A DNA stretch of 64,000 nt, taken from Ascidiaceihabitans donghaensis. Lineage in GTDB: Bacteria; Pseudomonadota; Alphaproteobacteria; Rhodobacterales; Rhodobacteraceae. Below the pieces are notes generated by a model. It had not been told where the DNA came from, did no database searches, and was given only the letters and a program-made list of their open reading frames with translations. Position numbers and translations under genes: made by a program. The stretch lies in assembly GCF_900302465.1 (NCBI RefSeq), contig NZ_OMOR01000001.1, forward strand, positions 434,001 through 498,000, read 5' to 3'. Position 1 is the first letter of the stretch. Every line of letters begins with the position of its first letter. Below are positions 24,338 to 41,888 of the stretch, piece after piece.

Positions 24338-24392
24338 GGGGGCTCTGCCCCCGTCCTGCGGACTCCCCCGGGATATTTTCGGCGAAAAGAAA
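24338..24392. repeat. Dispersed intergenic repeat A, copy 1
   Basis: A hairpin GGGGGCTCTGCCCCC, a spacer CGGACT, then CCCCCGGGATATTTTCGGCG and AAAAG. Closely similar copies are at 59443-59496 and, split by the IS1595 transposon, at 38671-38692 plus 41834-41879. It lies between the WGR and response-regulator genes. Confidence 0.75.
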
Positions 24393-38684: not shown

Positions 38685-38692
38685 AAAATATC
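38685..38692. repeat. 8-bp target-site duplication, left copy
   Basis: AAAATATC directly left of the left terminal repeat; an identical copy follows the right terminal repeat at 41834-41841. Eight-base duplications are usual for IS1595-family insertions. Confidence 0.9.
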
Positions 38693-38717
38693 CGGCCTTA
38701 TGTATCAAACGCACCAA
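38693..38717 (+). repeat. Left terminal inverted repeat of the transposon
   Basis: 25 bp beginning CGGCCTTATGTATC and ending ACGCACCAA, a perfect inverted match to 41809-41833. Homology stops abruptly after base 25. Confidence 0.93.
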
Positions 38718-38761
38718 GCCGATTGGCAAACTTTCAACCCTTTTCAACTAGAGGGTGACAT

Positions 38762-39604
38762 ATGAAAGATTTTGTGACCTATTCCGATTTTATGAGGAAC
38801 GCCGAAGCATACTTAGAAATCAAACTAGACCTTACTGATCCTGTAGAGATTGGTGACTTTGCGGCGTTGTTCGCGGGCTTTGGTGCTGAGTTTGAAAGAT
38901 ACCTTGTAGAAAGCCATCCAGAGTCTGCTGGAACTGCTAAGATGTATGTTAGCGAGGTTCGCAAGGGTTCAGTGATAGCGGCAATGTTTGCGGACATTCC
39001 TGACTTAGTCGGAATAGCAGACGCCGCACTCATAGCGCTTGGCTTTGGGGCGCTCTTCAATAGACGAATTAGAGATTTTGTGCAGGGAAAACATCTAGGC
39101 GGTGCAAAGAAGTCTCAACTATCAGACGTTGCAAAAACTGTGCAGGCCCTAGCTAACGACAAGAACGGCACCATGAGCTTGAAGGGTTTACGCCTTAAAG
39201 AAAGTGAATATGAAACTGAATTTGAGGCTGTTTTTACTGAACGCGAAGCAAGAGATGCTTTAGTAACAATTAATGAGCAGAAGACCGAACTGGACAAGGT
39301 AAGCGCCTCGGATCATCAGCGTGTTCTTATGACGTTTACCCGTTCTGACGTTGGCAACGCTGTGGTAGGGAAAAAATCTGGTGAACGGGTCGTAGTCGAA
39401 GAAATTTCTGAAAAGTCTAGAGCGCTCGTTTATGGTTCAGACTTAGCGGAAGCGCAGATAAAAGACGAAATCCAGAACGCGGATGAAAACATTTATAAGC
39501 GTGGATTTATCGTTGATCTAAATTTAATCTTCTCCGGGCCGCGACCCGTTGCGTATGCAGTCACTCATTTACATCAAGTAATCGACCTAACCGACGAGAG
39601 TTAG
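38762..39604 (+). CDS. Transposon passenger protein of unknown function (280 residues)
   Basis: The largest passenger gene. ATG follows AGAGGGTGACAT, a good ribosome site. The protein is acidic and has three visible parts: an N-terminal helical region (1-60), a middle stretch with MYVSEVRKGSVIAAMF and a hydrophobic helix LIALGFGALF near 87-100, and a C-terminal beta-rich domain of about 110 residues ending in GFIVDLNLIFSGPRPVAYAV. The gene is AT-richer than the neighbours, a sign of transfer. It converges on the DUF6471 gene with overlapping stops. I recognise no family; a host-interaction or defence role is possible but not shown. Confidence 0.75.
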   Translation: MKDFVTYSDFMRNAEAYLEIKLDLTDPVEIGDFAALFAGFGAEFERYLVESHPESAGTAKMYVSEVRKGSVIAAMFADIPDLVGIADAALIALGFGALFNRRIRDFVQGKHLGGAKKSQLSDVAKTVQALANDKNGTMSLKGLRLKESEYETEFEAVFTEREARDALVTINEQKTELDKVSASDHQRVLMTFTRSDVGNAVVGKKSGERVVVEEISEKSRALVYGSDLAEAQIKDEIQNADENIYKRGFIVDLNLIFSGPRPVAYAVTHLHQVIDLTDES

Positions 39605-39807
39605 ATACGAATTTCGGAAACCCCTATTACGGACATGCACTGTATCATGTAGGCTGCGCTGAACTTGCCGCGTGATAGTTTGTTGCGCACGTTTGGCTCT
39701 TTATCCCCAATCAACTCGGCAAGCTGGGCGTAGGTTACGCCCTGCCGCTTCAATTCAGCCTTCAAAATGTTAGCCGCCTTGGCTTCCCAGTCGCTCTGAT
39801 CTGGCAT
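39601..39807 (-). CDS. DUF6471 family small DNA-binding-like protein
   Basis: A 68-residue protein with a helix-turn-helix-like pattern: AELKRQGVTYAQLAELIG, KEPNVRNKLSRGKFSAAYM and CMSVIGVSEIRI. This matches the small DUF6471 proteins, which are thought to be regulators. It is divergent from the transposase gene, and the 100 bases between them hold repeated TATATGTGATAT motifs, so it may repress transposase and itself. The stop overlaps that of the 280-residue passenger gene. Confidence 0.8.
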   Translation of the reverse strand: MPDQSDWEAKAANILKAELKRQGVTYAQLAELIGDKEPNVRNKLSRGKFSAAYMIQCMSVIGVSEIRI

Positions 39808-39818
39808 GATGCATCTCC

Positions 39819-39894
39819 ATATATGATAAAGGCATCGTATATGTGATATTTGTCATTGTAAACCATACCTGTATGTACTATATATGTGATATAG
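39819..39894. promoter_or_regulatory. Repeated AT-rich operator candidates between DUF6471 and transposase genes
   Basis: TATATGTGATAT occurs at 39838-39849 and again at 39881-39892 as direct repeats 43 bases apart, with a degenerate ATATATGATA near 39819. The spacing is near four helical turns, so bound proteins would lie on the same face. They flank the starts of both divergent genes. Confidence 0.55.
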
Positions 39895-39907
39895 GTAATC
39901 ATAGGTA

Positions 39908-40876
39908 ATGACAATGGCACAGCACTTTCTTCTTTCAGCGGCATCACGCACCCTTAGCCTTCGCAGCATCTACAAAGCTGGCGAAGCGGCGGCGCATGAG
40001 ACGTTCTGCAAGATGCGCTGGCCTGAGACAGACGGTGAGGCGGTTTGCCCCGTTTGCTCCAACCAGGAGGCGTACAAGATCACCACGCGCCGCAAGTTCA
40101 AGTGCAAGAACTGCCACCACCAGTTTAGTGTCACCAGCGGTACAATCTTTGCATCCCGTAAGATGGGCTTCGTAGACCTTTTGGCCGCGATCTGCCTGAT
40201 CGTGAACGCCTCCAAAGGTATGAGCATGGTGCAGCTTTCCCGCGACATTGATTGCCAATACAAGACAGCTTTTGTGCTGGCCCACAAACTGCGTGAGGCG
40301 ATTGCACGTGAGGTCCAGACGGGTGAAGTGCTGGAAGGCCATGTCGAGATTGATGGTGCGTATTTTGGCGGTCACATCCGCCCCCACAACGAGAAAGCCA
40401 AGCGCGTTGATCGTCGCCTCAAGAAGCACCAGACAGGTATGCGCCGCGTTGTGGTGGCCCTGCGTGAGCGTACAGGCCGCACACTGCCCTTCGTGGCAAT
40501 GACCGAGGGCGAAGGCGTAGCACTGGCACAAGAGAACGTGTCGCGCATGGCAACCATGTCAGCAGACGAAGCAAGCCACTGGGATGCTTTGCACATGGGC
40601 TATGACGTAGACCGCGTGAACCATAGCGAGATTTACAGCGACCACGGCAAGCACACAAACATGGTTGAGTCGTTCTTCTCCCGTCTGCGCAACATGATCC
40701 AAGGCCAGCACCACGGCGTGTCCCCCAAGTACCTGCACCAGTATGCCAACCACTCCGCATGGTTGGAAGACAACCGCCGCACCGACAACGGCACCATGGC
40801 GCACATCGTTGTGTCTAACGCGATGGACGCGCCCGTGTCGCGGAACTGGAAAGGCTATTGGCAGCGTGCGGCTTGA
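39908..40876 (+). CDS. IS1595-family transposase
   Basis: A 322-residue transposase that moves the surrounding element. The N-terminal zinc ribbon is CPVCSNQEAYKI...CKNCHHQF (about 48-73, Cys-x2-Cys twice). The catalytic ISXO2-like domain has Asp in VEIDGAYFGG near 150 and the later SDHGKHTNMVESFFSRLRN segment near 243-261 with Asn and Glu, fitting the D-N-E type centre of this family. Start may be ATG 39908 or 39914 (MAQ). The gene looks intact with no frameshift, so the element may still be active. Confidence 0.94.
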   Translation: MTMAQHFLLSAASRTLSLRSIYKAGEAAAHETFCKMRWPETDGEAVCPVCSNQEAYKITTRRKFKCKNCHHQFSVTSGTIFASRKMGFVDLLAAICLIVNASKGMSMVQLSRDIDCQYKTAFVLAHKLREAIAREVQTGEVLEGHVEIDGAYFGGHIRPHNEKAKRVDRRLKKHQTGMRRVVVALRERTGRTLPFVAMTEGEGVALAQENVSRMATMSADEASHWDALHMGYDVDRVNHSEIYSDHGKHTNMVESFFSRLRNMIQGQHHGVSPKYLHQYANHSAWLEDNRRTDNGTMAHIVVSNAMDAPVSRNWKGYWQRAA

Positions 40877-40969
40877 TCAATTTTCAACTTATTTTGTTAC
40901 AGCAAATTGACAACACACAAAATATAGTAAGGCGCAATAGACTCACACATGAGAATCGGGTAAAGAAAA

Positions 40970-40997
40970 AGCGCATAGGTGTTCAGACCTATGCGCT
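40970..40997 (+). terminator. Hairpin downstream of the transposase gene
   Basis: AGCGCATAGGT and ACCTATGCGCT form a perfect 11-bp stem with a GTTCAG loop. A second hairpin CCACCG/CGGTGG at 41007-41024 follows, then AAATTTTG. Together they likely end transposase transcription and insulate the next passenger gene. Confidence 0.65.
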
Positions 40998-41108
40998 CTA
41001 AGAAACCCACCGTTTGGCCGGTGGAAATTTTGTGAATTCACACTGACACAGATGCGTCAAGTGAATCATAAAGTCAAGCCGGTCATTTTGTTCTTGAAAG
41101 GACAATTA

Positions 41109-41390
41109 ATGACTAACGACACCCAAAGCATCCTTTGCGGCTCTTGTCGCGTACCTCTTGAAGGTCCCACTGACAGTCAGGATCAAGACCTCTTTTCCTG
41201 CCCTATTTGCGGGATTAGCGACACACGTGAAAACGTCCTCGCTGAGGTCAAAGCCTTCCTCACAGAAGCCGCAAAGCACAGTATGCAAAAATCTATGCGG
41301 CAGTCTTTCGGGCGAAGCAAGGGCATCAAGTTCACGTCGAAGCCCATCCCAAAGAAGGTTCATAGGTTCATCACTAACCATAATCTCTAA
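41109..41390 (+). CDS. Transposon passenger zinc-ribbon protein
   Basis: A 93-residue protein from ATG 41109, preceded by GAAAGGA at good spacing. Four cysteines in CGSCRVPLEG...FSCPICG (9-35) form a zinc ribbon. The rest is basic and ends in KPIPKKVHRFITNHNL, which could bind nucleic acid. It lies between the transposase terminator hairpins and the convergent winged-helix-like gene. No function is known; a small partner or regulator of transposition is possible. Confidence 0.7.
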   Translation: MTNDTQSILCGSCRVPLEGPTDSQDQDLFSCPICGISDTRENVLAEVKAFLTEAAKHSMQKSMRQSFGRSKGIKFTSKPIPKKVHRFITNHNL

Positions 41391-41406
41391 CTCCTACTGG
41401 CTGGCC

Positions 41407-41775
41407 CTACGGGGCCAGCCTCCACAAACACCCATCTGGCCCGAAGTCCTGCACCACTATCCCTGCCTTTTTCATTTTCCACAAGCACTGGTCTACGCGA
41501 CGATAGGCCACTTCGGGCGGTATCTCTGGTCGCTGTGCTGAAACATGCCGCACAATATCTCTGCGCAGTTTTGGCCCGTCTCTGAGCGCGTTCATTACCA
41601 TAGCGCGGGTGTGGCCCCTCCCCGCAGCGCATGACCGCCTAGCAGGTAACACGGTGGGCATGTGAACCCCACGCAACACCAGCAACGCCTCAACATGCCC
41701 CAGCCCGTCACCATCGCCTCTTGTGATCTGCTTTCGCAGCGCCAGTAGCGCGTTATCTATCGACTTGTCCAACAT
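41407..41775 (-). CDS. Transposon passenger protein, winged-helix-like
   Basis: A 122-residue basic protein read inward from the right terminal repeat. The C-terminal half (AMVMNALRDGPKLRRDIVRHV, VDQCLWKMKKAGIVVQDF) has the order of helices and the strand pair of a winged-helix DNA-binding domain. The N-terminal part is helical with an RGDGDGLGHVEALLVLRG segment. The start lies 34 bases inside the terminal repeat, so the promoter must overlap the element end. It may bind DNA near the transposon end; no family was recognised. Confidence 0.65.
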   Translation of the reverse strand: MLDKSIDNALLALRKQITRGDGDGLGHVEALLVLRGVHMPTVLPARRSCAAGRGHTRAMVMNALRDGPKLRRDIVRHVSAQRPEIPPEVAYRRVDQCLWKMKKAGIVVQDFGPDGCLWRLAP

Positions 41776-41808
41776 GGGCCAAGAATAGCCGTTTGGGATT
41801 CACAAGTG

Positions 41809-41833
41809 TTGGTGCGTTTGATACATAAGGCCG
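41809..41833 (-). repeat. Right terminal inverted repeat of the transposon
   Basis: 25 bp, the exact reverse complement of 38693-38717, beginning TTGGTGCGTTTG and ending AAGGCCG. Confidence 0.93.
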
Positions 41834-41879
41834 AAAATATCCCGGGGGAGGCGTGAAACGCCGGGGGCAGAGCCCCCAG
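41834..41879. repeat. Target-site duplication (right) and remainder of dispersed repeat A, copy 2
   Basis: AAAATATC (41834-41841) is the right target duplication. It runs into CCGGGGGAGG, a spacer, and CCGGGGGCAGAGCCCCC, which is the rest of repeat A in reverse orientation, separated from its other end (38671-38692) by the transposon. Confidence 0.85.
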
Positions 41880-41888
41880 CATTCCGTT

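Follow-up and report, generated by a model that had tools for sequence, protein, structure and literature searches.

According to excerpts of PMC8101967, insertion sequences (ISs) of the IS1595 family usually have 8-bp target duplications and a single gene, a zinc finger being present in most, and excerpts of PMC9330008 treat transporter ISs with passengers as a recognised class. Toxin-antitoxin pairs are carried by Tn3 elements in the excerpted text of PMC7157771, BstA is placed downstream of the prophage cI gene in that of PMC8585504, and IS1595 elements are merely counted in the excerpts of PMC11578231, PMC6209633 and PMC3646047. Here we analyse a 3141-bp transposon of this family, located in a 64,000-nucleotide stretch of the Ascidiaceihabitans donghaensis contig NZ_OMOR01000001.1 (hereafter the window), together with its relatives. 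We give a probability of roughly two in three to the reading that this modular unit is a transporter IS that represses itself and ferries cargo of phage-defence or toxin-antitoxin-like type, in which repression and defence by the present copy are what we infer.

The IS1595 family was reportedly placed at the border of ISs and transposons by its 2009 family paper. With IS1595 transporter ISs the window element shares the DDE_Tnp_IS1595 domain, an N-terminal zinc ribbon, the 8-bp duplication and passengers between short ends. Unlike them, its lineage has a constant gene for DUF6471 (a domain of unknown function) with paired putative operators, a terminal winged-helix-like gene, and two exchangeable slots that often hold defence-type genes: slot A downstream of DUF6471, and slot B between the transposase and the winged-helix-like gene. 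The C proteins of restriction-modification systems and HipB are small autoregulators on paired sites; DUF6471 resembles them in its predicted fold, but no sequence relation between them and DUF6471 was found, and it would regulate a transposase rather than a restriction or toxin operon. Some relatives have toxin-antitoxin-like pairs beside the transposition genes, as the excerpted Tn3 elements do (PMC7157771), whereas the transposase is unrelated, no resolvase is present among the open reading frames (ORFs) of the window element, a DUF6471 regulator is predicted, and cargo extends beyond toxin-antitoxin pairs. The BstA prophage loci, as excerpted from PMC8585504, are echoed by a full-length BstA in one relative (L052) and by slot A cargo behind a repressor gene; here, however, the vehicle is a 3-kb transposon, the window has no BstA, and the BstA of L052 sits in slot B and not behind the repressor. 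The lineage, as seen across our class sample, is apparently undescribed: no title or abstract opening among the matches listed describes it, and a prior description is possible, most subscription papers lying outside the literature searched.

A complete transporter IS and the exchange of its modules

With five ORFs between its ends, the window element is a complete unit transposon and belongs to the IS1595 transporter ISs (Table 1). The initial annotation had proposed just such a transposon, and the perfect ends, the exact duplication and an intact transposase that passes curated IS1595 models bear this out; its coordinates, size and ORFs were correct to the base. The transposase matches the Pfam domains DDE_Tnp_IS1595 (1.6e-36) and, N-terminally, Zn_ribbon_IS1595 (1.1e-13), and scores 143.4 bits against the NCBIfam model transpos_IS1595 (cut-off 75), so that this domain, the zinc ribbon, the 8-bp duplication and the short inverted ends typical of the family are all present. 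A single transposase gene, also a family trait, is not what we found, since four further genes lie in the window element; this is nonetheless compatible, because the word "usually" in the excerpted PMC8101967 leaves room for transporter ISs. Passengers within one pair of ends, which define a transporter IS, are present, and relatives hold other cargo in the same ends with exact duplications. A 24-bp core of the end occurs twice in the 64 kb when up to 3 mismatches are allowed and not once in 100 shuffles; the own genome (7 contigs, 4.08 Mb) contains one full copy and no end matches outside it. The slot contents have a GC content of 0.45 (280-aa gene) and 0.46, against 0.58 for the transposase gene. 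Between the transposase and zinc-ribbon genes, a terminator-like 13-pair stem-loop with a T-rich tail lies on the minus strand (window 40968-40999).

Table 1. Features of the transposon and its target, in window coordinates
Feature	Position	Strand	Remarks
Left target duplication AAAATATC	38685..38692	none	8/8 identical to 41834-41841
Left terminal inverted repeat, 25 bp	38693..38717	+	CGGCCTTATGTATCAAACGCACCAA; matches right end 25/25; relatives have the same end
Cargo slot A, 280 aa, PHROG_9226 family	38762..39604	+	phrog_9226 2.6e-20; kin in L049, L200 and viral contigs
DUF6471, 68 aa, predicted XRE-type helix-turn-helix repressor, core gene	39601..39807	-	PF20075 8.1e-24
Putative divergent promoter/operator region	39808..39913	none	paired repeat TATATGTGATAT at 39838-39849 and 39881-39892
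IS1595-family DDE transposase, 322 aa	39908..40876	+	PF12762, PF12760, NF033547
Cargo slot B, zinc ribbon, 93 aa	41109..41390	+	112 aa in the ORF list, 93 aa counted from the ATG at 41109; PADLOC PDC-M14A 1.1e-4; same-slot relative in L211
Winged-helix-like core gene, 122 aa	41407..41775	-	points inward from the right end; same end in relatives
Right terminal inverted repeat, 25 bp	41809..41833	-	CGGCCTTATGTATCAAACGCACCAA; matches left end 25/25
Right target duplication AAAATATC	41834..41841	none	8/8 copy of the left
Extragenic palindromic repeat, the target	41834..41880	none	begins with the 8 bp that were duplicated

With the transposase as query, matches were found in 56 of 248 family-level genomes (a sample drawn from a larger group), 40 of them only weak. 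Identity reached at least 75% in 16 genomes including the own one, of which 14 have one full-length copy each, one an interrupted copy (G090) and one a fragment (G011); a full-length transposase copy plus a fragment is present in G162. Transposon ends with up to 2 mismatches occur in 25 of the 248 genomes (reversed control, 0). The 12 complete cellular elements (the window element, L049, L051 and L053-L061) measure 2.3-3.7 kb, have exact duplications and follow one common order: left end, slot A, DUF6471 reading leftward, transposase reading rightward, slot B, winged-helix-like gene reading leftward, right end. The winged-helix-like gene, which has only sub-cut-off Pfam matches in the window, can be recognised in each of the 12, but L051 has a short version and in L061 the gene is divided between two frames. 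Interrupted copies are seen at L155:1-1976 (G090, transposase in two pieces) and L061:5995-6274 (G061, winged-helix gene in two frames), and three copies are cut by contig ends (L050, L052, L062). Two contig-end pieces from G181, L130:4534-5872 and L052:1-2660, each have a transposon end beside CAGATCTG and are probably halves of one element with a PDC-S42-like gene and BstA.

Nine transposase loci lie on viral contigs, and four of these (L200, identical to L210; L211; L213; L217) are complete elements with exact duplications, so that the element may be carried by phages or prophages. On a Methylobacterium plasmid resides a version of 4.8 kb that has DUF6471 and whose transposase is about 59% identical. 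An ORF profile search did not find DUF6471 in the plasmid relatives of Limimaricola (1543 bp) and Tritonibacter (1132 bp), nor in L160 and L161, which suggests that the regulator is an addition.

Across 16 elements, pairwise identity of the transposase shows no correlation with that of DUF6471 (r -0.11; 120 pairs) or of the winged-helix protein (r 0.10; 91 pairs), whereas the two halves of the transposase agree (r 0.58). Long and short DUF6471 types, defined from a protein alignment before the tree was built, are mixed on the transposase tree with 6 changes. A topology in which the long type forms one transposase clade was rejected by the approximately unbiased (AU) test, with p-values of 8e-43 (L217 among the short), 7e-43 (without L217) and 1e-60 (L217, which bears the long type, among the long). 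Nucleotide matches of three query elements to the others fall mostly in the transposase, part of DUF6471, the ends and in some cases the winged helix, and they usually stop at the slots. Modules are thus exchanged between elements, and the two cargo slots are swappable; the cargo would swap by recombination between co-resident elements. Where the initial annotation had counted four passengers, the 280-residue gene and the zinc ribbon are indeed cargo, whereas the other two, DUF6471 and the winged-helix-like gene, accompany the transposase in relatives and look like core parts.

DUF6471 and a putative operator pair

DUF6471 is adjacent and divergent to the transposase in all 12 complete cellular elements, and the window protein scores 83.7 bits against PF20075 (cut-off 26.8). 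Among the family-level genomes it occurs in 23 of 248: in 15, an IS1595 transposase sequence lies within 1.5 kb (only a fragment in G195 and a distant one in G160), 6 more have a transposon end (with 3-5 mismatches in three), and 2 have neither. The class sample of 385 genomes contains DUF6471 at 28 places in 25 genomes, and for the 27 places outside the own genome a transposase sequence was found within 1.5 kb in 16. Linkage was complete above 90 bits (15/15, L177 having a fragment only) and nearly absent among weaker matches (1/12). DUF6471 looks like a core part rather than a passenger.

The AlphaFold2 model of DUF6471 is a small helix-turn-helix (HTH) protein with a predicted local distance difference test score (pLDDT) of 92 and helix 37-46 at the recognition position. 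Foldseek placed it nearest to C.BclI, HipB and other HTH regulators (probability 1.00, E 0.02 or worse), and the model thereby has the HTH fold with recognition helix expected of XRE/Cro proteins. No paper of the literature searched names DUF6471. We regard it, from this predicted structure, as the probable XRE-type repressor of the element's transposase. As an autorepressor, it would bind paired operator sites between its own gene and that of the transposase, so that transposition would occur mainly on entry into a repressor-free cell and then stop, and self-repression would hold the element at about one copy. The single full-length copy in each of 14 of the 248 family-level genomes fits this scheme. 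The winged-helix-like gene is probably a second regulator.

Candidate operators are found where this model would place them. The window repeats are direct, identical in 12 of 12 positions and 43 bp apart. When the best 14-mer repeat was scored for each offset in 37 DUF6471-transposase intergenic regions, which come from related elements and are not 37 independent cases, offset 43 gave a mean of 10.35/14, with at least 11/14 in 21 of 37; each other offset from 15 to 79 gave a repeat of at least 11/14 in at most 2 regions. Site 1 is nearer to its own site 2 than to that of other elements (11.6 vs 8.7 of 18; 0/10000 permutations), a comparison whose anchor was picked partly by site similarity, unlike that of the offset scan, and the excess recurred within 16 close elements (again 0/10000). 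Of 35 proteins, 23 have R, 9 have A and 3 have N at residue 41, which lies within helix 37-46; the fifth half-site base is C in 19/23 R elements and in 0/9 A elements. This covariation of recognition residue and operator agrees in nearly all tree pairings, and it is suggestive only.

Cargo in two slots and what it may serve

The 280-aa protein of slot A, which the initial annotation had called unknown, does have a family in the databases: in addition to its PHROG_9226 match, relatives are found in 17 viral contigs, one of them (L200) within this kind of transposon. It matches no family of Pfam or PADLOC, its only two NCBIfam matches fall below the cut-off, and its AlphaFold2 model is fair (pLDDT 85). 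Tail to tail with the phage homologue, an HTH/CI-like ORF (4-bp overlap to 4-bp gap) is present in 6 of 15 phage-borne loci (L191-L195, L204); these loci exclude L206 and the transposon copy L200 and come from contigs that are partly close relatives, and the ORFs of L192-L194 and L204 were judged by sequence alone. Five hand-picked repressor-like neighbours all match phage repressor or regulator PHROGs. In the window the 280-aa gene overlaps DUF6471 tail to tail by 4 bp, and it meets DUF6471 with a 4-bp overlap in all three transposons that have it. By analogy with these arrangements, we infer a role in immunity expressed during lysogeny: the gene would most likely be of the prophage immunity-region type, acting in superinfection exclusion or abortive infection, and its position behind the repressor would mirror its place in several phages. 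The family also occurs in bacterial genomes outside this transposon; in Bradyrhizobium (L069:6738-7817), such a homologue adjoins a PIN_12-domain gene (2.2e-27), a possible functional pair.

The zinc ribbon of slot B may be a second gene of defence type. In L211 the same slot has a gene 54.5% identical to it that also matches PDC-M14A weakly (5e-4), and a GIY-YIG-like gene, below the Pfam cut-off, stands beside it. PDC families are phage-defence candidates, unproven according to the excerpt of PMC11514479.

Among the complete cellular elements, slot B has a match of defence or toxin-antitoxin type in 7 of 12. L051, L053 and L059 have a SocA/Panacea antitoxin-like gene with a small unclassified partner, L057 an HTH gene with sub-cut-off similarity to MqsA plus DUF4258, L054 (3e-15) and L061 (2.5e-8 to BstA) KilA-N/BstA-like genes, and L049 a PDC-M06B gene (8.7e-23). 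Slot B is uncertain in 2 of 12, the window with its zinc ribbon and L056 with a sub-cut-off PBECR3. The contig-cut copy L052 holds a full-length BstA in slot B (3.5e-123), and other copies have an M78 peptidase (L062), PDC-M06B (L214, 3e-22), an MqsA-like piece (L135) and a cyclase-NUDIX protein (L157); the gene of L050 has no match in Pfam, PADLOC or NCBIfam. In slot A, the 280-aa family recurs in L049 and L200, L056 has an M78 peptidase near CapP (1.5e-25), L055 (4.7e-10) and L130 (7.2e-6) have PDC-S42-like genes, and membrane-type proteins of about 283 residues without a family are found elsewhere. Much of the cargo outside the window thus appears to be phage-defence or toxin-antitoxin-like, riding in two slots.

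Several results weigh against a self-repressing carrier of defence genes. The slot B gene was not identified in 3 of the 12 complete cellular elements (L055, L058, L060), several slot genes have no defence family match, and the slot A protein of L055 scores above the cut-off of an NCBIfam model that describes a putative structural protein of phages. For the window cargo itself, the zinc-ribbon match to PDC-M14A is weak, PADLOC matches are absent for the 280-aa protein and for the phage relative searched, and the 280-aa model has no match among PDB structures at E of 0.001 or below. On the side of regulation, a scan with the sigma-70 consensus found no transposase promoter in the window; the single site lies on the DUF6471 strand and is fewer than the shuffle mean of 3.4. 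The tree shows 4 changes, and 2 supported independent pairs, for the residue/operator covariation (sign test p of at least 0.5), and the window element and L049 break it by combining R with T. A low copy number could also stem from low activity.

We also considered a more far-reaching version, which we hold as a tentative proposal. The elements would be widespread, phage-like transposons of the Alphaproteobacteria in which DUF6471 confers superinfection immunity through its own operator pair; divergence of recognition helix and operators would create immunity groups, allowing co-residence and in turn recombination; cargo would dock behind the repressor, the counterpart of its place after cI in prophages. 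The transposon would then act as a mobile cassette of 3 kb for defence, and PHROG_9226 would be a new defence family of prophages and transposons.

Among the rival explanations, the best survivor, although unlikely, is that the cargo serves the element, its toxin-antitoxin or abortive-infection genes being addiction modules that keep the transposon stable instead of protecting the host from phages. The Panacea and MqsA-like pairs of slot B would suit such a role, and the toxin-antitoxin pairs of Tn3-family elements are a proposed precedent (PMC7157771, excerpt); phage defence, however, accounts better for cargo such as BstA and the CapP-like gene and for the phage surroundings of the 280-aa family, and the window cargo has no recognisable toxin-antitoxin pair. 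We find it improbable that the 280-aa gene arrived by accident as a phage gene with a structural or housekeeping role. No function is on record for it, the tail-to-tail repressor is absent in 9 of the 15 phage-borne loci and, by eye, the relatives in L199 and L190 lie away from a repressor, but the repressor-like ORF in the other 6 and the copies in bacterial genomes outside the transposon speak against this. Least probable of all is an ordinary IS1595 transporter IS with random passengers, in which DUF6471 and the winged helix are old passengers with no role in transposition: transporter ISs are indeed a recognised class (PMC9330008, excerpt) and the cargo is varied and partly unrecognised, but DUF6471 in 12 of 12 complete cellular elements with class-wide linkage, the fixed-spacing repeat pair in the shared promoter region and the 7 of 12 slot B matches speak against it.

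Insertion sites and biological meaning

Nine of 11 other genomes of the genus match the flanks of the element. Judged by their translations, the flanking genes encode what seems to be an ABC-type permease and a glutathione-transferase-like protein; eight of the nine genomes have them 44-153 bp from each other and no element in between. The ninth, the sister genome G011, has a gap of 1341 bp, with the AAAATATC site unfilled and the sequence AAAATATCCCGGGGG intact on the left and a remnant of another family member on the right (L064:2336-3671), which comprises one end and a stretch matching the last part of a different cargo protein over 40 residues and is broken up by other sequence. The intergenic region was therefore struck at least 2 times, at different 8-bp sites. 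These empty sites confirm a bounded insertion, and the element has probably moved recently, as the initial annotation had supposed, given the exact duplication, the intact genes and the absence from eight congeneric genomes in this genus-level comparison. It had also held that ends recurring without a transposase as unrelated repeats would speak against the unit; ends without a transposase do exist, but they belong to the same family, some standing alone, others bounding a miniature copy of 105 bp and a non-autonomous copy of 1.5 kb. The miniature copy, in the congeneric genome G010 (L065:130-234), has both ends, and its flanks agree in 7 of 8 bases.

The transposase would move the unit into AT-rich 8-bp sites with a purine at position 2 and a pyrimidine at position 7, sometimes inside extragenic palindromic repeats. 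Both bases are found in the duplications of all 17 elements tallied (each with an exact duplication; one, L135, non-autonomous). Among the 23 transposase-bearing elements with two ends, of which 12 are cellular, 7 lie on viral contigs and 4 on plasmids, an exact duplication of 8 bp is present in 19; L209, L212 and L214 lack one and L157 agrees in 7/8, and in L161 the exact duplication lies one base in from the printed end. The own genome has 32 copies of AAATATCCCGGGGG, the first 14 bp of the palindromic repeat struck in the window, and none of the reversed control; a search of 13 genomes found this 14-mer in 10 of them, and similar stretches of 40-50 bp lie elsewhere in the own genome; one further copy is found in reverse orientation at window 24338-24383. 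At L051:7151-7208, two family ends face each other 8 bp apart around TAAATTTC, which suggests insertion next to an older relic.

If the reading of a self-repressing, cargo-shuttling transporter IS is true, small IS-derived transposons would move single phage-defence genes among chromosomes, plasmids and prophages, reassorting them by module exchange. DUF6471 would gain a testable role, and the transposon ends would be usable as bait for new defence genes.

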